Shown: positions 3,463 to 14,041 of the stretch, in pieces
Layout: the number at the start of each line of letters is the position of its first letter
Numbering within the stretch: the first letter of the stretch is position 1
Assembly (NCBI GenBank): GCA_015296085.1
Contig: DVDT01000101.1
Coordinates: forward strand, 1-37,459
Direction of reading: 5' to 3'
From: Trichormus sp. M33_DOE_039
GTDB taxonomy: Bacteria > Cyanobacteriota > Cyanobacteriia > Cyanobacteriales > Nostocaceae
Length of the DNA stretch: 37,459 bases
The notes under the pieces: model-generated
What the model saw: only the letters and a program-made list of their open reading frames with translations
Databases searched by the model: none
Told to the model about the DNA's origin: nothing
Program-made: the position numbers and the translations under genes

Positions 3463-3819
3463 AGAAACATAGGCTTGAAATTCCAAAGTCATTCATAAAG
3501 TTTGTTGACTGCTGACAGTCAATAGTGATACCAATTCACAATTCGCAATGGACTTCTCTTCGAGACGCTGCGCGAACGTCCCGCTTCGCTAACGCAATGG
3601 ACTTCTCTTCGAGACGCTGCGCGAACGTCCCGCTACGCTAACGCAATTAAAAAACTGAGATGCAGTAAAACTTTCAGGGTTTACATCTGTATCAGGTTTT
3701 TCGTGAAATGGTATGAGATAGTGCTTTCCTGTCGCCTTGCGTCGGAAAGCAACTATCGTTAGCGTAGCGGTAGCGACGTTAGGAGCGTCACCCATAAGGG
3801 TCAACAGTCAACCAAAAAA
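3463..3819. other. Intergenic region with repeats, no gene seen
   Basis: This 357-bp gap lies between the SDR and the minus-strand Cdc48-like gene, whose stop is at 3820. Both genes end here. It holds the 3505-3522 hairpin, the 49-bp tandem repeat and a GC-rich repeat fragment at about 3750-3790. No credible coding sequence or RNA gene was found. Confidence 0.6.
3545..3642. repeat. Two tandem copies of a 49-bp cyanobacterial repeat
   Basis: Copy 1 spans 3545-3593 and copy 2 spans 3594-3642. They differ at one base (CGCTTCGCT against CGCTACGCT). The unit contains GAGACGCTGCGCGAACGTCC, and a related stretch (GTTAGCGTAGCGG, about 3757-3770) lies further on in inverted sense. Repeats of this style are scattered through Nostocales genomes. 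It explains the spurious minus-strand open frame across 3589-3804. Confidence 0.85.
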
Positions 3820-5658
3820 CTAATTTGCTCTCTGCTCTGTTAGCACTTGATAAGCATAATTGAAATCATCATTGGAAATCTTAATTTCCGTTGGATCTGT
3901 CAGACCTTCAGAGCGAAAACGACGAATAGCTTCTACAGCCGCTTGATTGCTGAGTAAAGTTAAATCTGCACCGTTCCAATCTTTGGTCATTTCTGCCCAA
4001 TATGTCAAATCCACATCTTGCAATGGTCGTCCTTGACAATGAACTTGCAGAATCGCTAATCGACTAGCTAAATCTGGTAAATCAACCTTCATCTGTAAAT
4101 CCAAGCGTCCAGCGCGTAACAAAGCTGGGTCAAGGGCATCAGGTCGATTCGTCGCCCCAATCACTAAGATAGTGCTACCTACTTCTATACCATCTAACTC
4201 AGTCAGCAATTGTCCAACGATGCGATCGCTCACTCCCGAATCACCGCTAAAACTACCGCGTGCAGGGGCTAATGTATCGATTTCATCAATAAATACTACG
4301 CAAGGTTCTGCCTGACGTGCCTTTGCAAATAATTCTCGCACCGCCTGTTCACTCGCACCTACCCAACGACTCATTAATTCTGGGCCGTTGACACCAATGA
4401 AATTCGCTCTGGCTTGGGAAGCGACGGCTTTGGCTAATAAAGTTTTACCTGTTCCGGGAGGCCCCCACAACAAAATGCCTTTGGGTGCTAAAGCTTTCGT
4501 TTGCAGATACAGTTCTGGATAGAGTAACGCCCCTTCCACTGATTCCCTTAGAGTTTGCTTGATGTTATCCAAACCGCCAATGTCATCCCAGGCGATTTGC
4601 GGCATTTCTACTTCCACACTCCGCAGGACGGCTGGTTTGATTTCTTTGAGTGCTTGTAAGAAATCGGCTGCACTCACCGTCATATTTTCTGGAATCTCGC
4701 CGTCAATCGAAGGAATTTGACGACGTAAGGCAGTATACGCAGCTTTTTGGCAGACGGCTTTCAAATCAGCCCCGACAAATCCCACCGCCCGTTCAGCGAT
4801 CGCATCTAAGTCAACTGTCTCTTCTAAAGGCATCGCACGGGTGAGAATTTGCAATATTTCTCTGCGTCCCTTCACATCAGGGACACGAAACTGCACTTCC
4901 CGATCAAATCTCCCCGGACGACGCAACGCCGGATCAAGATGATCAGGACGGTTAGTCGCTGCCAAAACAATCACACCTTGACTTTGGGAGAAACCATCCA
5001 TCAAACTTAATAATTGAGCTACAAGGCGTTTTTCCACTTCGCCTTCTACCGCACTGCGATCGGGAGCTAAACTATCGATTTCATCAATAAAGATAATACA
5101 GGGCGCATTCTTCGCCGCTTTCTCAAAAATACCCCGCAATCTTTGTTCTGCTTCCCCATAGTATTTGCTGATGACTTCAGGCCCGACTAAGGCAATATAA
5201 TTTACACCGAGTTCTTCAGCTAAAGCACGTGCCGTCAAAGTTTTACCAGTACCAGGAGGGCCAACTAACAGTACGCCCCGTGTCGGTTCAAGTCCCAATT
5301 TTGCCAGCAAATCAGGACGTTTTAAGGGAATAGCAATGAGTTCTTTGAGTTCTTTGAGAACCTCGCCCAATCCCCCCACATCTTTTAACGTATAGTCCGC
5401 AGAGCTATGAGGTGGGACAACCTCAGAATCGTCTCCATGACCACTATTAGAATTAGGAGTAGGCGGGGTACGAAAACGGCTAGTACCAACATCATTACCC
5501 ATATTATTAGGACGTGGTATCGTCCCATAACGGGGAATACTACTCATTGGACGGGAGTTAATCTGTACATCCGTCTTAATTTCTCCCTTCTCAATCTTAT
5601 CTTCTAAAGTTTTTACCAAATCTAATAATTGCTCAAATCCCTTGAATAATTCACTCAT
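3820..5658 (-). CDS. Double-AAA ATPase, Cdc48/VAT-like, in the gas vesicle region
   Basis: Two AAA modules are in tandem in 612 residues. D1 has Walker A GPPGTGKT at about 133-140 and Walker B IIFIDEID at about 188-195. D2 has GPPGTGKT at about 399-406 and VVFIDEID at about 454-461, with ATNRPD and arginine-finger regions in both. Cdc48/p97-type enzymes are hexameric unfoldases. The Cdc48 N-domain is missing: the first 87 residues are a short amphipathic helix (FEQLLDLVKTLEDKI) and a Pro/Asn/Ser-rich linker. The frame extends to 5772, but that extension runs through a palindromic repeat. The ATG at 5658 has GGGAG seven bases upstream, so it is chosen. It follows the ArsA-type gene after 154 bp. 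A role in gas vesicle assembly or turnover is inferred from position only. Confidence 0.85.
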   Translation of the reverse strand: MSELFKGFEQLLDLVKTLEDKIEKGEIKTDVQINSRPMSSIPRYGTIPRPNNMGNDVGTSRFRTPPTPNSNSGHGDDSEVVPPHSSADYTLKDVGGLGEVLKELKELIAIPLKRPDLLAKLGLEPTRGVLLVGPPGTGKTLTARALAEELGVNYIALVGPEVISKYYGEAEQRLRGIFEKAAKNAPCIIFIDEIDSLAPDRSAVEGEVEKRLVAQLLSLMDGFSQSQGVIVLAATNRPDHLDPALRRPGRFDREVQFRVPDVKGRREILQILTRAMPLEETVDLDAIAERAVGFVGADLKAVCQKAAYTALRRQIPSIDGEIPENMTVSAADFLQALKEIKPAVLRSVEVEMPQIAWDDIGGLDNIKQTLRESVEGALLYPELYLQTKALAPKGILLWGPPGTGKTLLAKAVASQARANFIGVNGPELMSRWVGASEQAVRELFAKARQAEPCVVFIDEIDTLAPARGSFSGDSGVSDRIVGQLLTELDGIEVGSTILVIGATNRPDALDPALLRAGRLDLQMKVDLPDLASRLAILQVHCQGRPLQDVDLTYWAEMTKDWNGADLTLLSNQAAVEAIRRFRSEGLTDPTEIKISNDDFNYAYQVLTEQRAN

Positions 5659-5724
5659 ACAATCACTCCCAAAATTGACTAATAATTGGCGTTGCATAAA
5701 AGGATGATTTATTATTTTGTGGGA

Positions 5725-5771
5725 TGGGCATCTTACCCGTCCCTTGTATCTCCGGGCAGGCAAGATGCCCA
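5725..5771. repeat. Imperfect palindrome between the ArsA-like and Cdc48-like genes
   Basis: Arms TGGGCATCTT (5725-5734) and AAGATGCCCA (5762-5771) are exact complements and extend imperfectly inward (CCCGTCCC against GGGCAGG). This is the style of dispersed palindrome common in Nostoc genomes. On the minus strand it lies in the leader of the Cdc48-like gene and could fold in the transcript. Confidence 0.7.
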
Positions 5772-5812
5772 CCTTAAAAGATTCATCCTGTTATTTAGCA
5801 AAGCCTAATAAT

Positions 5813-7717
5813 TCAGCGTTTATTTGCAGTTAATTCCTCAACTTCAAATAAAAGATTAGCTGCCCCTTGAATTCTGGCAAGAGGCTCAACAGAGCGGGGT
5901 AAGTTCGGTAAACGAATTATGGTTTGCTCTGGAAATAAACTGCCATCAATTTTTCCCTCTTGGCTGTAGCGATTCTGCACTACATAACGCTGATCTACAC
6001 CCATTTTTTTTAGGGATGCTGTTAAGCGAATGTGTTCAGATATAATTGCTGCTTCTGATTGAATGACTCCAACAAATTGAGTGTGTTGGGGATTTTTTAA
6101 TTTTTTTTGTGCTTGGACAACTTGTTGGCGTAAACTTCTTAATCGTCCAATAAAATCCACTCTACCCAAAACATCTTGATATTTAATCCACAGTTTAAAT
6201 ATCCAAGATAACCAATCACTTAAGGCTGATGGCATTTCTAAAAATCGCATCAAATGACCCGTAGGTGCTGTATCTAAAATAATTAAATCTTGTTGATTAC
6301 TATCTAATAAATCCATGACAGTCACCAGGGATAGCATTTCATCGATTCCTGGTAAAGCTTGAGACATAATCTGCCGCCATGCCTCTGGAACATAGGCAAT
6401 ATTAATTGTTGCGTCTGTTTGCGAACCTTCACCGCTAATCATATCTGCTAATTCCCACAGATAGTCAGCACGGAATTGTTCTAAAACTCTATTGGCATCA
6501 ATTTCTTGCCCACTCAAATTAGCTGTTAAAGACAAAGGTTCATGCCCTAAGTTTTTACCAAAAGCATCCCCTAAAGAATGGGCTGGATCTATAGAAATCA
6601 CACGAATTTTTTTATCTGGATGTTGTTGAGCAGAAGCCCAAGCTATAGCAGCAGCTACTGTTGTTTTACCAACACCTCCTTTCCCTCCAATAATGACTAA
6701 TTGACATCCTTCATTCACGAAATCTCGAAAACTAGGTAAAACTTTAGTCGGCCATTGAATCTCCGGTGGCGCAGCTAGCTCTACACTCTCAATTTTTTGA
6801 ATTTGGGATGCTAAAGCATCTAAAGATACCCCACCCAAGGGTTCTACTCTTTGTTGGGGAACGGTAAAAACAGGCTCTTTAATAACAAGTTGTAAATATT
6901 TCTTGAGGAGATTTTGCTGTTCAGCATAACGGTCTGGTTCTATTTCTGCATTTGTTAATACTCTATTAATGAATAAGCCAGCAAAAGGTACTTCTAGATT
7001 TTCTAAATTCTGAATAAAACGCTCAGTTTCTAAAAAACACATGGGTTCAGAAATACCTACTACCAAGCAACCAGTAAATTTATCGTCTTGCAGTAAACGT
7101 CTACCTTCTGCCAGTTGGGTTCTCATTTCTACTAAAAAATCATCAACTTCATCAGCAGTGTAAGAACCTGTAAAACTTTTGGTAATTACTCGATGTTTTT
7201 CTTGAAATAATTCTAGAGAATTTAAGATAACATCTAAAAAATCTTTTAAGCGCAATAAATTTAGTGTATGTCCAGAAGGGGCCATATCTACAATTACTCG
7301 ATCTGCTTCTTTTTCAGCTAACAGGCGTTGAATTTCTAATAACCCCATTAATTCATTTAAGCCAGGCCAGTCTAAATCCCAAACTGGTGCTAAATCATCT
7401 CCATCTGCTAAACTACCCCGCTCAACCAGTAATTCTAAAAAGCAGCTATATTTGGCTTTAAACTCTAATAATAATTTTTGAGCATCCAATGCTTGAACAC
7501 TCAAGTTAGGTAAATCAGCTAACGGTGAAGCAATACCTTGCACTTCTGTCAGCAGTACATCGCCTAAAGAATGAGCTGGATCTGTAGAAAGTAACAGAAT
7601 CTTTTCTTGAGGAAATTGTCTAGCCCAATAACGAGCAAAACTGCAAGCGAGGGTCGTTTTACCAACCCCTCCTTTGCCGCTAAACATAACTAAATGTAGT
7701 GAGTCGTAATATTTCAT
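5813..7717 (-). CDS. ArsA/Get3 (TRC40)-type tandem ATPase
   Basis: A duplicated SIMIBI ATPase of 634 residues. The first half has a deviant P-loop GKGGVGKT at about 14-21, switch I DPAHSLGD at about 46-53 and DMAPSGH near 144. The second half repeats these as GKGGVGKT at about 345-352, DPAHSLGD at about 377-384 and DTAPTGH near 482. Tandem fusion is the ArsA layout, but no arsB, arsC or arsR is near, so arsenite export is unlikely to be its job here. Get3-type relatives escort hydrophobic tail-anchored proteins. The gene starts 16 bp after the gvpW-like stop, which suggests one operon. A TTG at 7741 is possible, but the ATG at 7717 places the first P-loop at the usual distance. Handling of vesicle proteins is inference. 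Confidence 0.87.
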   Translation of the reverse strand: MKYYDSLHLVMFSGKGGVGKTTLACSFARYWARQFPQEKILLLSTDPAHSLGDVLLTEVQGIASPLADLPNLSVQALDAQKLLLEFKAKYSCFLELLVERGSLADGDDLAPVWDLDWPGLNELMGLLEIQRLLAEKEADRVIVDMAPSGHTLNLLRLKDFLDVILNSLELFQEKHRVITKSFTGSYTADEVDDFLVEMRTQLAEGRRLLQDDKFTGCLVVGISEPMCFLETERFIQNLENLEVPFAGLFINRVLTNAEIEPDRYAEQQNLLKKYLQLVIKEPVFTVPQQRVEPLGGVSLDALASQIQKIESVELAAPPEIQWPTKVLPSFRDFVNEGCQLVIIGGKGGVGKTTVAAAIAWASAQQHPDKKIRVISIDPAHSLGDAFGKNLGHEPLSLTANLSGQEIDANRVLEQFRADYLWELADMISGEGSQTDATINIAYVPEAWRQIMSQALPGIDEMLSLVTVMDLLDSNQQDLIILDTAPTGHLMRFLEMPSALSDWLSWIFKLWIKYQDVLGRVDFIGRLRSLRQQVVQAQKKLKNPQHTQFVGVIQSEAAIISEHIRLTASLKKMGVDQRYVVQNRYSQEGKIDGSLFPEQTIIRLPNLPRSVEPLARIQGAANLLFEVEELTANKR

Positions 7718-7733
7718 AATAAGTTGAAAATAA

Positions 7734-8420
7734 TTAAACAAAGTGATAGGGGGGAAGAGGTTCTCCTAAGATTAAATTCCAGTGAGGACAAGCTTTTTGC
7801 CAAGCCGAAAATTGCGCTAAAAGTGCAGCTTGCTCATCAGTATTAACTAAAAAATACAAGCGTACTTCTTCTGCTTGTGGTTGAACTATAACTGATGATT
7901 GATAAATTTCCGTAATGTAATCAATGAATTGATTTTTTTCCTCATTTTGTTCAAGACTAAAGCTTTTTTGAATTTCATATTGTTGCTTTTTAGCTAAAAA
8001 ATAGTCTCTACCACCTCCCACTGTTAATTTTGTCGGCTCTGCCAATACTTGAGGAACTAGTTTTAAAGTATATTCATGTTTATCCTTGATACTTACTAGT
8101 TTTTCTAAGTATTCTCCGGCATGATCATCCATATGATTGAGCAAGATTTCATGGGAATTGAAATGAGTCCCGAAACGCAAAGGTAAAATTGTAGTTTGGC
8201 AAAATAGTTCACGGATGACGCGATCGTGAGCTAAAACCATTTTGATGACTTGTTCATCATTATTTTGATATGTCTCTGGGGATATGCCATATTCAACGAT
8301 AGCTGAGAGATTAACCCCATTAATCAAAGTTATCTGAGCAGTATTACCTTTTGGTAAATTCAAATCAAAATTAGGATTTTTGAGAAAAGCGTAAGTGTAG
8401 AAATTTTGCGATCGCATCAT
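7734..8420 (-). CDS. gvpW: Gas vesicle protein, GvpF/GvpL family (gvpW-like)
   Basis: This 228-residue protein is the second GvpF/L-family member in the cluster. It has the family pattern: an N-terminal FYTYAFLKNP strand, a HDRVIRELF helix, the signature TTILPLRFGTHF, a charged middle, and a C-terminal domain with RLYFLVNTDEQAA and the ending LPPYHFV. GvpF/L proteins are minor, essential assembly factors; GvpF of cyanobacteria lines the gas-facing side. Its place beyond gvpG and gvpV matches gvpW of Microcystis and Anabaena clusters. A TTG at 8459 would extend it, but two adjacent ATGs (8420, 8417) directly precede RSQNFYTYAF and are preferred. No clear Shine-Dalgarno is seen. Confidence 0.82.
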   Translation of the reverse strand: MMRSQNFYTYAFLKNPNFDLNLPKGNTAQITLINGVNLSAIVEYGISPETYQNNDEQVIKMVLAHDRVIRELFCQTTILPLRFGTHFNSHEILLNHMDDHAGEYLEKLVSIKDKHEYTLKLVPQVLAEPTKLTVGGGRDYFLAKKQQYEIQKSFSLEQNEEKNQFIDYITEIYQSSVIVQPQAEEVRLYFLVNTDEQAALLAQFSAWQKACPHWNLILGEPLPPYHFV

Positions 8421-8565: not shown

Positions 8566-8880
8566 ATGAAAAAAATACGTAATCGCGGTGCAATTAGACC
8601 TAAAGTTACTACAATGCCTCGTAGTAAATCTGAAGCATCCAATCAATTAGAACTCTATAAACTAGTGACAGAACAACAGCGAATTAAGCAAGAATTGAAT
8701 TTCATTGAGCAGCGGACTGTACTACTTAAACAACGCTTGATTACGCTCAAAACTCAAATAGAAGACACAGAAAGAAATATTCAAAATTTACGAGGTATAG
8801 AAGCAAAAAATTCTCCTGTATCGCGTCCACAGATATTCTTTGAATCCAACAACTACCAAACTTTTGATATTGAATATTGA
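8566..8880 (+). CDS. gvpV: Gas vesicle protein GvpV
   Basis: This is a 104-residue basic, then coiled-coil protein. It opens MKKIRNRGAIRPKVTTMPR, followed by SNQLELYKLVTEQQRIKQEL and a long heptad-rich helix, then a polar tail. This matches the short GvpV proteins of cyanobacterial clusters. The frame is open upstream to 8473, but the upstream part overlaps the promoter and is hydrophobic leader-like noise; ATG 8566 has CAGG about 9 bases ahead. It is on the plus strand, against all other gvp genes here, divergent from the gvpW-like gene and convergent with gvpG. Its precise role in vesicle formation is not known to me. Confidence 0.78.
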   Translation: MKKIRNRGAIRPKVTTMPRSKSEASNQLELYKLVTEQQRIKQELNFIEQRTVLLKQRLITLKTQIEDTERNIQNLRGIEAKNSPVSRPQIFFESNNYQTFDIEY

Positions 8881-9008: not shown

Positions 9009-9386
9009 TTAAGGTGATAAAACTAAATTTTCATTATCTTCATAATCTGTATTGAATTGAGGGGTTTCTTGGTAAATTTCATTTAATTCTGATGCTGCTG
9101 GCAATGCAGGTTGCAGTGCAAAATGTTCATCTTCTTCTGCTTCATCATTCACGTTTAATTCTTCTTCTAATGCTTGAATTCTTAAAAGTAATTCTTCCTC
9201 TTTCTCCTCAAACTCTTCTTCTGATATTTCACCCATGTCAAAGGATAATTGTAGACTTAATAATTGTTTATGCAAATTTTCTTGGGCATCAAATTCAGTA
9301 TTGGTACGCTCTTGAATTTGTTCTCCAATCCACACTAATCCACTAATTGGCCCCATGACTGGAAATAGTAAGATTTTCCCTAGCAT
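9009..9386 (-). CDS. gvpG: Gas vesicle protein GvpG
   Basis: The 125-residue protein opens with LGKILLFPVMGPISGLVWIG, the GvpG hallmark, and continues into a glutamate-rich coiled coil with the conserved QLLSLQLSFDMGEISEEEFE stretch. It ends in an acidic tail that is longer than in some relatives. GvpG is a minor protein needed for assembly, probably by interaction with GvpF. Its Shine-Dalgarno AGGAG (reverse complement of 9395-9399) overlaps the gvpF stop codon at 9398-9400, with 8 bases to the ATG, so translation of the two is probably coupled. Confidence 0.92.
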   Translation of the reverse strand: MLGKILLFPVMGPISGLVWIGEQIQERTNTEFDAQENLHKQLLSLQLSFDMGEISEEEFEEKEEELLLRIQALEEELNVNDEAEEDEHFALQPALPAASELNEIYQETPQFNTDYEDNENLVLSP

Positions 9387-9397
9387 AATATGGACTC

Positions 9398-10135
9398 CTA
9401 AGCAGTAATTTGAGCAAATGTATAAGGTGCAGTAAAGTTGTTATAGCGAATGCGTAAACGTTCACCAAATCGATCATCAATTGCTTCTACGCGTTCGCTA
9501 AATAAAGATTCTTTGTCCCAAGGAATCAAAAAAGCCGCATTGTAAATCATGTCCTCTGTCATGGGGTCACTTTCGATTACCTCATTTGCTAGAGGCTTTA
9601 ACTCATTAAAGAAAGCTTGAATTACAGATTGTTTGCGGGCTGCTAAATTACTTTCAATTAATTGCCCAATATGAATCACTTCCTCCATGCTTAAAGCCTT
9701 TCCCTCCATTTGATCACGCTGCTGCCTCAAATTGGGATTAGACTCCATCATGGCTTGCAATTCAGCTTTAGTGTCCCAAAAAATCTTGATGCTAACTTCT
9801 CGCGTGCCGTGCAATTTTTGGAATAATTCTTGTAGTCTCTCTTTGTATGGTTGGATGAGTTGTGTGATTACTGTGTCCCAACTTTTGACAACTAATCCAA
9901 AACGCAAAGGTAGAAGAGTACAGAACCCTTCTTGCATTGCTTGTTCAAGAACTTTTTCGTGACTGATTAAATTACGACGGGAGGCTAAATATTTCTCTTG
10001 TTTTGCTTCTGAATATAAAAAAGTTAATCCATCAATTACTTGACTATAAACTGGTTGAGAATCCAATCCTTTGATTGCAATTGTTGTGGGAATTGCATCA
10101 GGAAAAATTCCGTAGAGATAAAAACCGCAATCCAT
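9398..10135 (-). CDS. gvpF: Gas vesicle protein GvpF
   Basis: Full-length cyanobacterial GvpF of about 245 residues. The N-terminal domain starts DCGFYLYGIFPDAIP, then PVYSQVIDGLTFLYSEAKQE, the signature TLLPLRFGLVV, the helix ALSMEEVIHIGQLIE, and a C-terminal alpha/beta domain ending RIRYNNFTAPYTFAQITA. GvpF is a structural/assembly component on the inner face of the nascent vesicle. Three starts are stacked (TTG 10144, ATG 10141, ATG 10135); I give the last, which directly precedes the conserved core, but 10141 is equally possible. It lies 12 bp upstream of gvpG. Confidence 0.92.
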   Translation of the reverse strand: MDCGFYLYGIFPDAIPTTIAIKGLDSQPVYSQVIDGLTFLYSEAKQEKYLASRRNLISHEKVLEQAMQEGFCTLLPLRFGLVVKSWDTVITQLIQPYKERLQELFQKLHGTREVSIKIFWDTKAELQAMMESNPNLRQQRDQMEGKALSMEEVIHIGQLIESNLAARKQSVIQAFFNELKPLANEVIESDPMTEDMIYNAAFLIPWDKESLFSERVEAIDDRFGERLRIRYNNFTAPYTFAQITA

Positions 10136-10159
10136 GATCATCAAAAATACTAACTTTAA

Positions 10160-10633
10160 TTACAAAGGTTTTGCTGTCAAAACTAAACGTAACTTGGCAT
10201 GAATGAGATTGAGTTGTGCTAAACCCAAATCTATCTCGCCATCTACTACAATCCCGGTGTTTAAAAGACGGTCTAGTAGTTCTAGCACTGAAGGTTGAGT
10301 CCCAGGTTCACCAGGATAATAAGAACCAGGTGATGGTAAAAGAGTACCGACATCTCCTAAATGGACATTTAAGTCTGTGGGATCGATCTCAAAAATCTGG
10401 CACAAATTTAAAACTTGTTCTTCTAACTTTTTCAAGCTTTCTGCGGCTTGTTCTAGTTCAGATTCACTGAGACATCCCTGATCCATGCGTCGGATTACTT
10501 GCGCTTCCATCAGCTGACGTACTAGTTCCACTACAGTTAAAAGTAGAGGAACTAAACCCGCTTGGCTATTAGCTTTAGATGTGATAGGTGGCAAATCAGG
10601 AGAGCTTTCAACTGGATTACAAACCATTGTCAT
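10160..10633 (-). CDS. gvpK: Gas vesicle protein GvpK
   Basis: The 157-residue protein has the GvpK helix AGLVPLLLTVVELVRQLMEA followed by QVIRRMD and a coiled segment, LNVHLGDVGTLLPSPGSYYP, and a C-terminal GvpA-like helix pair (LLDRLLNTGIVVDGEIDL, HAKLRLVLT). GvpK is a minor protein required for vesicle formation. It lies 24 bp upstream of the gvpF reading frame and 79 bp downstream of gvpJ; that gap is too small for the gvpX gene that I recall at this place in Microcystis. Confidence 0.92.
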   Translation of the reverse strand: MTMVCNPVESSPDLPPITSKANSQAGLVPLLLTVVELVRQLMEAQVIRRMDQGCLSESELEQAAESLKKLEEQVLNLCQIFEIDPTDLNVHLGDVGTLLPSPGSYYPGEPGTQPSVLELLDRLLNTGIVVDGEIDLGLAQLNLIHAKLRLVLTAKPL

Positions 10634-10712: not shown

Positions 10713-11153
10713 CTAAGCCTCAAGTTGCGAATCTTCTACTAATTCATTTAATTGACTGCTGACCTCATTCTCAGCATTAGTGGATAATGTAACGCTCTCT
10801 TTCAAATTGGCCGCCGTGAGCAGACGAAGCTGAGTTTCTAAACTTTCTAGCCGTTGATGAAGTTGTTGGTTTTCTTCAATTAAATGTTGAGATTTGCTAC
10901 TGAGATAGGGGTCATTTTCCCACCAATTAATACCCATCTCACGGGCTTTATCAACAGAGGAAATTAATAAGCGAATGCGGATATGTAGCAGTTCAGTAGA
11001 AGCAATGGAGACAGAGATATCACCAGCAATCACAATTCCTTTATCCAACACCCGTTCGAGAATATCTGCTAAGGTAGAACCTTGCGTAGATGTGGAAATC
11101 GCTCGACTGGAGTTAGTTAGCGGACGTGTTGGCTGTAGTGGGGTAGTAGTCAC
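10713..11153 (-). CDS. gvpJ: Gas vesicle protein GvpJ
   Basis: A 146-residue paralogue of GvpA. The GvpA core is seen as TLADILERVLDKGIVIAGDI, SVSIASTELLHIRIRLLI and DKAREMGINWW; this is followed by a coiled coil (QHLIEENQQLHQRLESLETQ) and an acidic tail absent from GvpA. GvpJ is a minor shell-like protein thought to act in nucleation or at the vesicle tips. The start is GTG, two bases after the gvpN stop, so translational coupling with gvpN is likely. Confidence 0.92.
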   Translation of the reverse strand: MTTTPLQPTRPLTNSSRAISTSTQGSTLADILERVLDKGIVIAGDISVSIASTELLHIRIRLLISSVDKAREMGINWWENDPYLSSKSQHLIEENQQLHQRLESLETQLRLLTAANLKESVTLSTNAENEVSSQLNELVEDSQLEA

Positions 11154-11155
11154 GA

Positions 11156-12223
11156 TTAATTCGACTCTTTGATGTTAGGTATAGTTTTGTTAATCACTAA
11201 GCCTTTTTGTTGGAGAGGCATAGGATTTTCTGGAGTTGCTTGTTCGTCTTCTGCGCTCACTGTGTCATCTGATGTGACACGATGATGTGATTCCTCTATT
11301 GCTTGTATGTGTAGCTGGTTGAGCAATTCTAAGAAAATAGTTGTGGCTTCGCTGGCAGACCAATTCGTGCGATTGAATAGCACATCTGCACAAATTTCTT
11401 TAAAATCTGAATTCTCTGGTAAGACCAAAATATTGTGTTCCCCACAAACCTTCGCAATCATCAAACAAGACCTTAAGCCAGAGGTCTTTTCCCCACCAGT
11501 TCCTAAACGAAATGCTTTTACTAAACGTACAATTAACTGAGCATCTTCTCTAGCAATGCCGGTTTTATGAACTAGGATCTCGATTTGAGTTTGCTCATCC
11601 GGTTCTGGCATATTAATAGTTATCAACCTATCCATTAAAGCGTCTTGCGTTGAATGAACTCCGCAGTATTCTTCAGGGTTGGAGGTAAAGATTGCCCGAA
11701 ATTGGGGATTAACGTGGAGGTATTCTGGCTGATTGCTACTGGGAGGAAGGGTAAGAATTTTTTCTTCCAATGCTGAAAGTAAGACGTTGTTTACTTCAGG
11801 TTTAGAACGGTTAAATTCATCGTAGACTAAGGTAAAACCTTCACGACAGGCTAAAGTTAATCGAGAGTCAACCCAATTTTGCTTCAGTTCATCTTCGACT
11901 TTCAGAACGTTGTGAATGTAATTATCCAATAACTTTTTATGGGTGTAACCAGATTCACTACCAATCAAGTCAGAACTTTTAAATTCATCATCTCCGAAGA
12001 CTAACATAATTGGTCTATCTAGACAGTTAGCTAAGTGCATAGCTAAAGTTGTTTTTCCTGTACCAGCCGGGCCGCGTAAGTGAATTGCAAACCCTGATGT
12101 GAGATAACGTAGTGCGCGAATGGCCACTCGCTCGATTGCTGGTGTGACGACAAACTGCCCAGGACGAACACGAAGAACAGCTCTTTTCTTATTATTTGCG
12201 GGATGATTTGTGGTGAGAGTCAT
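11156..12223 (-). CDS. gvpN: Gas vesicle ATPase GvpN
   Basis: A MoxR-like AAA+ ATPase of 355 residues. The Walker A motif is [11 protein letters not shown] near residue 55, Walker B is [13 protein letters not shown] near 132, and sensor-1 is [14 protein letters not shown]. The GvpN-specific start [18 protein letters not shown] is present. A polar C-terminal tail of about 45 residues (from about [11 protein letters not shown]) looks like a linker. GvpN is an assembly ATPase that lets vesicles grow to full width. No Shine-Dalgarno is evident before the ATG. Confidence 0.95.
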
Positions 12224-12589: not shown

Positions 12590-12979
12590 CTAAAATGTGC
12601 CGAAAACGCTGGCAAACAAATCTTGCCGAAATTGGTGCAGATTTTGCCTTTGTGCTTTTGCTTTCTTAGCTCTGTCCTTTGCTGTTTCAGCTAAAAAGTC
12701 GTAAGTATTATGCTCCAGGTCTTGGTGGAACTGATGCAAAAACTTTGCTTGTGCTTGTGCTTGAGCAAATCTCGCTTTGGCTGTTTTCGCTAGAAAATCT
12801 TGAGTTGTGTACTCAAGTTCTTCGTGGAACATACGCAGCTCTTGCGCTTGCTTTTTAGCTTGCTCTTGTCTGTGTTCTGTTGTTGCGGACAAGAATTCAC
12901 GAGTCTCTCTGAATAGTTGATTGACTTCCTCAGCGATTGACTGATGCTCTTGCCGGATTCTTTGCATTAAAGCCGTCAT
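12590..12979 (-). CDS. gvpC: Gas vesicle outer protein GvpC (short form)
   Basis: The 129-residue protein is built of 33-residue repeats: Phe-Leu pairs at 29-30, 62-63 and 95-96 mark an exact 33-residue period, giving two full repeats and one slightly short one, with HxFHxDLE and DFLAxTAKxR as repeat landmarks. The N-terminal 28 residues ([19 protein letters not shown]) resemble the conserved GvpC start. GvpC winds around the outside of the shell and strengthens it. The Anabaena flos-aquae protein has five such repeats, so this one is short, which is expected to affect collapse pressure. GGAG lies six bases before the ATG. The sequence is rich in Gln, Ala and Lys. Confidence 0.92.
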
Positions 12980-13171: not shown

Positions 13172-13387
13172 TTAAGCAGGCATTGCGGCGGATTGAGTTA
13201 GACCTACGGCTTCTGCATATTTCAGGTAGGTTTCTACAGATGCAATCACGATGCGGGCTTCAATTGCTAATAGTTCAATACCAACTAAAGAAACACGTAC
13301 CCAAGCATCTACAACGATACCTTTGTCTAAGATACGATCAATAACTTCTGCCAAGCTGGAGGAAGAATTAGTTTTTTCAACTGCCAT
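13172..13387 (-). CDS. gvpA: Gas vesicle structural protein GvpA
   Basis: The 71-residue major shell protein. [40 protein letters not shown] and [15 protein letters not shown] form the near-invariant helix-strand-strand-helix core. The subunits polymerise into the ribbed, water-excluding wall. Only one gvpA copy is present, while several cyanobacteria have tandem copies. AAGG is nine bases before the ATG. gvpA is first in the operon and is followed by gvpC after 192 bp. Confidence 0.98.
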
Positions 13388-13774
13388 TGTTTTACACCTT
13401 AACTCATTGTTGATTCTTAGTACTGGCTAGGCATTTGCTCTAGCTCGTTACTGAATTAATCTTAGACTCGGCTCTTCGGTAATGTAAAGAGTTTAACAGG
13501 ATGAAAAGTGTAAAGAAATGCAAAAAAAGTTACAATGTAACAGCAAAAATGTAAACTTATAGTTTGAATTGTATGTTCTTGCAATATTTTTTATTGAAAA
13601 TGTCAGTTTTTATCTGAAAAATTGTTTGTTTTGTGAGTTTTTCTGTATATTTTTGTTTAAAAACATCGCTATTTATTTTAAGTAAAAGTTGCTTCGATTT
13701 AAGTAATAATACGGTTTCTAAATGTTTGGTGGTATAACATAGGATATTTTCAACAATTATTTTTGACCAAAATC
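13388..13774. other. Divergent regulatory region between gvpA and an unknown gene
   Basis: This very AT-rich 387-bp region must hold the promoters of gvpA (minus) and of the unknown gene at 13775 (plus). Apart from the gvpA promoter candidate and the 13-bp palindrome at 13529-13541, TATAAC at about 13733 may be the -10 of the plus-strand gene; its -35 is unclear. No coding sequence was seen. Confidence 0.5.
13459..13488 (-). promoter_or_regulatory. Candidate gvpA operon promoter
   Basis: On the minus strand TTTACA (complement of 13483-13488) is followed after 18 bp by TAAGAT (complement of 13459-13464), about 70 bp before the gvpA ATG. Upstream lies the palindrome GTTACAATGTAAC (13529-13541), a possible operator. 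No known gvpA promoter was available to compare. Confidence 0.45.
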
Positions 13775-14041
13775 ATGTCTATAGAAGCTACTTCTGATCC
13801 AGTACGCCAAGGAGCGTTAGCCGGGCTAATTGCTACCTTTGTACAGCAAGGACATCCGCCTCAGTATGCTCAATTTATGGCAACTTCTATTATTTTTCAG
13901 ACAGACTTAGATTTAAGAAATGCCCAAATTTCTCGTCTTTTAAATTGGTTGAAACAGGAACATGAGAGTGTTTATACATCTGCTTTAACTGTAGTGGAAA
14001 AAACTCGTGAGGAATTTGAGCGTCGCGTTCAACAAGATTGA
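13775..14041 (+). CDS. Unknown 88-residue protein divergent from gvpA
   Basis: I do not recognise a named family. The protein starts MSIEATSDPVRQGALAGLIA and is predicted largely helical: a hydrophobic first helix, a HPPQYAQFMATSIIFQTDLD segment, then amphipathic helices (RLLNWLKQEHESVY) and a charged C-terminus. No signal peptide or transmembrane helix is obvious. A TTG at 13763 would add four residues; the ATG is preferred. A strong terminator follows, so it is a real single-gene transcript. Its divergent placement with gvpA suggests, but does not show, a link with gas vesicles. Confidence 0.7.
   Translation: MSIEATSDPVRQGALAGLIATFVQQGHPPQYAQFMATSIIFQTDLDLRNAQISRLLNWLKQEHESVYTSALTVVEKTREEFERRVQQD

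Follow-up and report, generated by a model that had tools for sequence, protein, structure and literature searches.

The window described here, the whole stretch of DNA that was analyzed, comprises 37,459 nucleotides of Trichormus sp. M33_DOE_039 (contig DVDT01000101.1, positions 1 to 37,459) and carries, beside gas vesicle (gvp) genes, three genes on the reverse strand: gvpW of the GvpL/GvpF family (7734..8420; ATG at 8420, stop at 7734; PF06386, 1.1e-33), a gene for a tandem ArsA/Get3-type ATPase of 634 amino acids (5813..7717; ATG at 7717; two stretches of PF02374), and a gene for a Cdc48-like double-AAA ATPase of 612 amino acids without the Cdc48 N domain (3820..5658). Both ATPases almost certainly have a role in gas vesicle biology, and the explanation that we consider the best as a whole, at a probability of roughly 0.55, is a gas vesicle–dedicated holdase/unfoldase system for the shell proteins. 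The gap between gvpW and the ArsA gene is 16 bp, and that between the ArsA and AAA genes is 154 bp, counting the AAA start at ATG 5658; the order of the genes, the 16-bp spacing, and the common strand given in the initial annotation were confirmed from the open reading frames (ORFs) and by Pfam and NCBIfam searches covering 10 window proteins. That annotation had also attached the unit to the end of the gvp block, and it does adjoin gvp genes, but it is not continuous with gvpG, since a gene on the forward strand (approximately 8566..8880 in the ORF list) stands between gvpG and gvpW. We take this gene to be gvpV from its place in the gene order (compare the order in PMC7204071). Plasmid p4 of Nostoc sphaeroides shows the same gene order with the same inverted gene between gvpG and gvpW, and the gene is called "gas vesicle protein" in NZ_CP031945. 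Because gvpV intervenes on the opposite strand, gvpW, ArsA, and AAA probably form a transcription unit of their own, as judged from the layout; scanning for promoters gave no guidance (12 sites against 13.5 expected), and a terminator scan likewise did not rise above shuffles. As a separate observation, a 35.8-kb Nostoc sphaeroides plasmid (L101; NZ_CP031945.1) bears the whole gvp block including gvpW, ArsA, and AAA, which is a possible route of transfer.

One set of 291 genomes of the cyanobacterial phylum was searched separately for GvpN, the tandem ArsA, and the AAA (limits of E ≤1e-40 for ArsA and E ≤1e-130 for the AAA, for which each best match scored at least 790 bits), and the resulting sets were then compared. 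The numbers of positive genomes were 44 for GvpN, 42 for ArsA, and 43 for the AAA. The initial annotation had pointed to gvp-negative genomes as the place where the pair would be common if it were unrelated to gas vesicles, and neither ArsA nor AAA was found, at the thresholds used, in the 247 GvpN-negative genomes. The hypergeometric p for co-occurrence with GvpN, in which relatedness is ignored, was ~1e-48 for ArsA and ~1e-50 for the AAA, and four genera (g1, g4, g6, and g13) each contained some genomes having all three genes and others having none. The two genes could be mere hitch-hikers on a mobile gvp block, at whose end they stand, and the near relative of the block on the 35.8-kb plasmid is in favor of this explanation. 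However, although gvpN, ArsA, and AAA all lay within 20 kb in 28 of the 44 genomes, 7 genomes had gvpN and ArsA on one contig at a distance of 131 kb to 3.3 Mb (by contig coordinates; less if circular), and 6 had them on separate contigs. Because the pattern holds where the genes are unlinked, and also in phyla with other gene orders, the co-occurrence is not mere linkage, and passive linkage was rejected as highly improbable.

Relatives of both ATPases are members of an Hsp20-ArsA-Cdc48 gvp module that occurs repeatedly. Searching with a GvpN alignment yielded at least 62 loci; 52 of them (L106-L157) were accepted as gvp loci and serve as a sample, and 10 weak ones (L158-L167; E 8e-6 or worse) were left out. 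The neighbors were labeled with profiles made here, and many contigs end early. Within 10 kb of gvpN in the 52 loci, a Cdc48-type AAA was present in 25, ArsA in 17 (one truncated, L116), and Hsp20 in 25. Hsp20 was present in the cluster of all 22 non-cyanobacterial loci having Cdc48, and in 19 of them the labeled gene immediately preceding Cdc48 was the Hsp20 gene gvpH (the exceptions being L132, L134, and L137), with a single-domain ArsA between Hsp20 and Cdc48 in 8 of those 19. A tandem ArsA stood directly after gvpG in four of the five full-length non-cyanobacterial tandem loci. The gvp clusters on Methylocella and Methylosinus plasmids close with an Hsp20/GvpH gene, then an unnamed gene, and finally one annotated "CDC48 family AAA ATPase"; the unnamed gene, which lies between GvpH and Cdc48 in both (L104:18636-19193 and L105:11080-11661), is a possible extra partner.

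Beyond the local neighborhood, a Cdc48-type protein was found in the genomes behind 42 of the 52 gvp loci (28 of 38, 11 of 11, and L133, L136, and L157 by local copies), and among named controls, none of the 10 bacteria but all 4 archaea had one. The locus L122 is from Chlorobiaceae, which belong to the phylum Bacteroidota in GTDB. In 392 genomes of this phylum (Chlorobi-Bacteroidota), Cdc48 was found in 22, GvpN in 24, and both in 21 (p ~1e-30), and the two were on different contigs in G303, G459, G505, G517, G613, and G644. In 42 genomes of the class of L109, a Desulfomonile, Cdc48 above 850 bits, a line set after the scores were seen, was found in 9, GvpN in 11, and both in 8 (p ~1e-5). The gvp-positive centers G293 and G376, picked for carrying gvp genes, are included in these sample counts. 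At E 1e-120, a Cdc48-type match was obtained in 13 of the 42 genomes, including all 11 with GvpN and the GvpN-negative G331 and G341; more genomes match at this limit because a second, lower-scoring Cdc48-like paralogue occurs. This paralogue (~525-627 bits; for example, G293:C102:2697-4706, L197) was also seen in the GvpN-negative G341. Taken together, the co-occurrence was strongly positive for both ATPases in Cyanobacteria and for Cdc48 in Chlorobi-Bacteroidota and the Desulfomonile-type class, which bears out their earlier assignment to gas vesicles.

The window ArsA belongs to the TRC40/Get3/ArsA superfamily by its TIGR00345 score (339 bits; cut-off, 135) and by the P-loop and switch motifs of each half in the alignment, which are GKGGVGKT, STDPAHS, and DMAPSGHT in half a (residues ~1-325; 6743..7717, reverse strand) and GKGGVGKT, SIDPAHS, and DTAPTGH in half b (residues ~326-634; 5816..6742, reverse strand). 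Half b also contains a helix with W502 and F507, both invariant across 9 aligned tandem proteins. In a tree of 40 halves and single domains, half a (99/97), half b (92/82), and the single-domain forms (92/90) each formed a clade, apart from two arsenite ArsA; the tree left out L101 and L004 of the window's genome, which lacked the P-loop pattern, its outside sequences were the two arsenite pumps, L001, and one haloarchaeal TRC40, and long branches were flagged. Because half a and half b each form one clade, the tree suggests that the tandem gvp ArsA arose by one duplication-fusion.

The protein could be an arsenite-pump ATPase, as annotation names imply. Apart from the family name, this identity has in its favor the fold of the tandem model, for which the closest solved structure is an arsenite ArsA. 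However, the arsenite-binding cysteines, which we take to be Cys113, 172, and 422 in E. coli ArsA numbering, are missing: the Cys columns 113, 172, and 419 shared by the Aquincola and Halobacterium ArsA correspond to G119, A188, and G457 in the window protein. The score for the arsenite-pump equivalog TIGR04291 was 171.9 bits, far below the cut-off of 650, and the clades stand apart from the two arsenite ArsA. The initial annotation had stated that no arsenic genes are near, and none was recognized among the ORF translations of the window, family searches having covered the 10 window proteins. The arsenite-pump identity was rejected, its probability being close to nil. According to a passage of PMC3610870, a Nodularia ArsA gene numbered directly after gvp genes was filed under arsenate functions; this filing is in line with a pump, and the gvp link explains why some "ArsA" genes have been placed under arsenic.

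In profile searches against solved chains, the gvp ArsA matched best Chlamydomonas CrArsA1 (5zme) and archaeal Get3 (3zq6), and with the single-domain gvp ArsA profile, arsenite ArsA was far behind these two. The best fold match of the single-domain model was archaeal Get3/TRC40, and CrArsA1, followed by Get3, was in the top five for the tandem AlphaFold model (predicted local distance difference test, 80). The window ArsA thus resembles TRC40/Get3 and CrArsA1, carriers of tail-anchored proteins, in TIGR00345, fold, and P-loop and switch motifs, and CrArsA1 is likewise tandem; it differs from them in being gvp-restricted in our samples and in lacking the CxxC motif. This zinc motif, located at the dimer interface of Get3, was present in four of eight single-domain gvp ArsA; among five full-length non-cyanobacterial tandems, four had it in each of their halves, whereas it was absent in the window ArsA and all five cyanobacterial tandem proteins shown. 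Perhaps a zinc bridge is superfluous once the pair is fused. The ArsA models have predicted helices in the region where a hydrophobic client groove like that of Get3 would be expected. The Get3/CrArsA1-like sequence and fold would also suit a bacterial Get3 of the ordinary kind, inserting into the membrane a protein that happens to be needed in floating cells. Such membrane targeting is, however, very unlikely: ArsA is confined to the GvpN-positive genomes of the cyanobacterial sample and adjoins gvp genes in several phyla, and the window's genome has further ArsA-family genes. We know of no tail-anchored client of gvp ArsA.

The link between ArsA and gas vesicles is not new, contrary to the wording "candidate new" of the initial annotation: it was proposed in 2010 (PMC2963123) and seen in 2017 (PMC5464585), as passages of both papers indicate. 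Castillo and Saier described in 2010 a two-domain ArsA of ~637 amino acids in gvp operons, including those of Anabaena variabilis and Nostoc PCC 7120, and in the relevant passages their homologues (clusters 4 and 6) are two-domain proteins without ars cysteines, in cyanobacterial and other gvp operons, with Hsp20 beside some (PMC2963123). The window ArsA fits this gvp-associated type in its two ArsA domains, gvp neighborhood, and lack of ars cysteines. The 2017 profile study found ArsA to coevolve with eight gas vesicle proteins and two uncharacterized ones (PMC5464585, in part). The terms Cdc48 and VCP are absent from the text of PMC2963123, and the present analysis adds the co-occurrence counts, the single-domain forms, the one duplication, the Cdc48 partner, and a common helix. 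No mention of the Cdc48-gvp link, the three-part module, or the GvpH/AAA helix was found in the literature searched; in PMC6107691, which has both gas vesicle and Cdc48 in its text, the Cdc48 passage concerns a Ni-NTA contaminant.

The window AAA resembles Cdc48/p97/VCP in having two AAA domains (PF00004 twice), both with P-loops (Walker A motifs), and the aromatic sequences KYYG and RWVG, which we take to be pore loops, so that it appears to be built for threading. It scored 669 bits for TIGR01243, below the cut-off of 802.65, which was passed in other-phylum gvp genomes (17 of 38, 11 of 11, and 21 of 22 matches). CDC48_N and CDC48_2 were not matched in it by Pfam at 1e-6, whereas both were present in the three non-cyanobacterial gvp Cdc48 scanned (L127, L119, and Methylosinus). 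Where Cdc48 has its N domain, the window AAA has a GvpH/Hsp20-type N-terminal helix (residues 1-34; 5557..5658, reverse strand), connected to AAA domain 1 by a low-complexity linker (5392..5556, reverse strand) that varies among relatives and may be disordered. The start codon is most likely ATG 5658 rather than the listed GTG 5772, because the latter falls inside an inverted repeat in the ArsA-AAA gap (5714..5782; 29-nucleotide arms, 72% complementary) and an ATG directly precedes the conserved helix in 30 of 30 aligned AAA proteins, including that of the window. A double ring of the Cdc48 type with aromatic pore loops is also in keeping with turnover only, in which the pair takes apart collapsed or surplus vesicles for the reuse of GvpA and has no part in assembly. 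A tail of the HbYX type, presumably a proteasome-docking motif, was absent from all 30 AAA tails listed, a protease partner not having been looked for, and a Get3-like holdase with Hsp20 neighbors is better suited to nascent clients. Turnover only is therefore improbable, even though assembly in human cells manages without the pair, as a passage of PMC10344784 indicates.

The N-terminal helix of the window AAA is homologous to that of GvpH/Hsp20, as concluded from profile comparisons in both directions. A profile of the first 45 residues of the 30 AAA proteins was searched against 11,442 ORFs from 57 gvp loci, and besides four cyanobacterial AAA, only six GvpH/Hsp20 were found at E<0.1 (E 0.0021 to 0.069). 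Conversely, a search with a GvpH N-terminal profile found AAA N-termini among the best 45 matches listed; this profile, reused in hhalign, was built from 18 of 28 Hsp20 ORFs, selected with a typed pattern that is already a description of the helix. A comparison of the two N-termini by hhalign gave a probability of 89%, an E of 2e-6, and a score of 30.6, whereas the highest score among 40 column-permuted profiles was 15.5 (4.9%). In control searches with the AAA profile, the best shuffled match had an E of 6.3 and the best reversed match 0.43, and in 40 column-permuted searches, no Hsp20 was found at E<0.1, some other ORF reaching 0.011 (median of the best, 0.76). Chance resemblance of the AAA N-terminus to GvpH was ruled out by these shuffled, reversed, and column-permuted controls.

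The pattern common to the AAA and GvpH begins with LFKG, followed by an L-rich and an LEEK-like part, and the same pattern was seen by eye in Halobacterium GvpH. Among 11 further cyanobacterial gvp genomes, the profile showed the helix clearly in 10 but not clearly in L191, nor in a second copy, L196; the typed pattern missed divergent AAA. It was found in none of 17 non-cyanobacterial Cdc48 loci. The window AAA differs from GvpH, an Hsp20-type gas vesicle chaperone, in having no alpha-crystallin domain matched (17 Pfam families, 1e-6), the label "Hsp20" itself resting on database names and similarity, since GvpH of L121 matched no Pfam family at 1e-6. No Hsp20 was labeled in the 15 cyanobacterial gvp loci, whole genomes not having been searched for it. 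Components found apart in some lineages and joined in one protein in others often cooperate; outside Cyanobacteria, GvpH and Cdc48 are neighbors, and within Cyanobacteria, the AAA itself carries the helix as a fusion, and we therefore infer shared work. The chaperone/unfoldase idea of the initial annotation fits both this helix and the adjacency of Cdc48 to gvpH.

According to passages of PMC9501494 and PMC7688916, GvpH has both GvpL and GvpF as binding partners and protects GvpM against aggregation, and GvpA is bound by GvpF; a hydrophobic N-terminal segment of GvpG has been predicted (PMC2963123, in part). We infer the client, docking site, and direction of action of the ATPases, and for the particular division of labor between them, we regard the odds as even. 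Through an ATP-gated groove, the Get3-like ArsA would bind a newly made hydrophobic protein of the GvpA/GvpJ family or the N-terminus of GvpG, which is also hydrophobic, stop its client from aggregating, and pass it to a GvpF/L/W platform. The Cdc48-like AAA, presumably a hexamer, would be held at this platform by its GvpH-type helix and would thread and unfold trapped, misassembled, or collapsed shell proteins so that assembly can resume with them. In other phyla, the helix would be on a separate holdase, GvpH, encoded beside Cdc48, and in Cyanobacteria, it would be joined to the unfoldase itself, at the position that the N domain takes in Cdc48, no GvpH having been seen in the gvp loci examined. 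More tentatively, and with doubt somewhat outweighing belief, gas vesicles may have their own proteostasis line of a small heat-shock protein, a Get3-type carrier, and a Cdc48 unfoldase; bacterial Cdc48 would then serve essentially gas vesicles in phyla such as Bacteroidota, and the GvpH/AAA helix would be an address label by which its bearer docks on the GvpF/L/W platform, bringing the work of the unfoldase to the growing shell.

Alternatively, ArsA and AAA could be assembly motors that, with GvpN, energize nucleation or rib insertion, and have no quality-control task. Castillo and Saier proposed an energizing role for ArsA in gas vesicle biogenesis in 2010 (PMC2963123, in part), elongation already depends on an AAA+ ATPase, GvpN (PMC11445434, in part), and both the strict co-occurrence of the ATPases with GvpN in the 291 genomes and the position of the tandem ArsA directly after gvpG in most of the non-cyanobacterial tandem loci would fit this role. 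On the other hand, the Hsp20 adjacency and the GvpH-type helix suggest chaperone work, vesicles form in human cells without both ATPases (PMC10344784, in part), and gvp clusters without them exist, which makes assembly motors an unlikely explanation.

The holdase/unfoldase system is itself opposed by several observations. Among the 44 cyanobacterial GvpN genomes, G185 and G274 had no ArsA and G091 had no AAA. Ten gvp genomes of the 52-locus sample were without Cdc48, namely eight Bacillales-type Firmicutes (L147-L154), L108, and L118, and neither ATPase was present in the stretches read of the Octadecabacter, Spartinivicinus, and Halobacterium gvp clusters. In Chlorobi-Bacteroidota, Cdc48 occurred without GvpN in G611, and GvpN without Cdc48 in G537, G652, and G687; the high-scoring Cdc48 of G611 and G331, in which no GvpN was found, could reflect incomplete assembly, lost vesicles, or another role. 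Only 6 of 28 Hsp20 ORFs were matched by the AAA helix profile at E<0.1, and the fold match of the tandem model to arsenite ArsA also counts here. In addition, Anabaena flos-aquae gvpA with gvpNJKFGWV, without both ATPases, yields vesicles in human cells (PMC10344784, in part). The ATPases are not required for vesicles everywhere. Because human cells possess TRC40 and p97, vesicles formed in them are not a clean test of the need for the ATPases. Client binding of the Get3 type by gvp ArsA would be an extrapolation, GvpA being no tail-anchored helix. The proposed functions are suggested by co-occurrence, synteny, and the helix.

Many bacteria probably keep a dedicated crew handling the sticky shell proteins of gas vesicles. 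A dedicated ATPase pair makes both the solubility of shell proteins such as GvpA and the clearing of collapsed vesicles testable, and gas vesicles are a likely job for bacterial Cdc48, considering its absence from the 10 named bacterial controls and its presence in only 22 of the 392 Chlorobi-Bacteroidota genomes. The ATPases are also suggested as missing factors where gas vesicles are expressed as ultrasound reporters. According to passages of PMC10344784, the Anabaena flos-aquae cluster was weak in E. coli, with vesicles invisible by phase contrast, and its authors allowed that genes outside annotated operons might be needed for vesicle expression; the words ArsA, ATPase, and AAA are absent from its text.

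The remaining gvp genes of the window are on the reverse strand and comprise gvpG (9009..9386; PF05120), gvpF (9398..10144; NF052351, 390.6 bits against a cut-off of 350), gvpK (10160..10633; PF05121), gvpJ (10713..11153; PF00741, with NF046090 GvpJ as the best match yet below its cut-off), gvpN (11156..12223; TIGR02640, 411 bits, above cut-off), gvpC (12590..12979; PF01304 and TIGR02641), and an ORF for a 71–amino acid protein (13172..13387). The last is probably gvpA, as judged from its translation. The C-terminus of GvpK (residues 115-153; gene at 10160-10633, reverse strand) is a GvpA-type domain (PF00741, 1.4e-13). Upstream of and divergent from gvpA, an ORF of 92 amino acids (13763-14041, forward strand) is worth a look for its position. 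The methanotroph plasmid gvp clusters start (L104:8517-12660 and L105:1378-5686) with a sigma-54 activator, GvpF/L, an ATP-binding or PAS protein, and a response regulator, and this sigma-54 activator group is perhaps a dedicated control system. Directly downstream of the AAA gene of the window, a 49-nucleotide repeat occurs in two head-to-tail copies (3544-3641; 98%).

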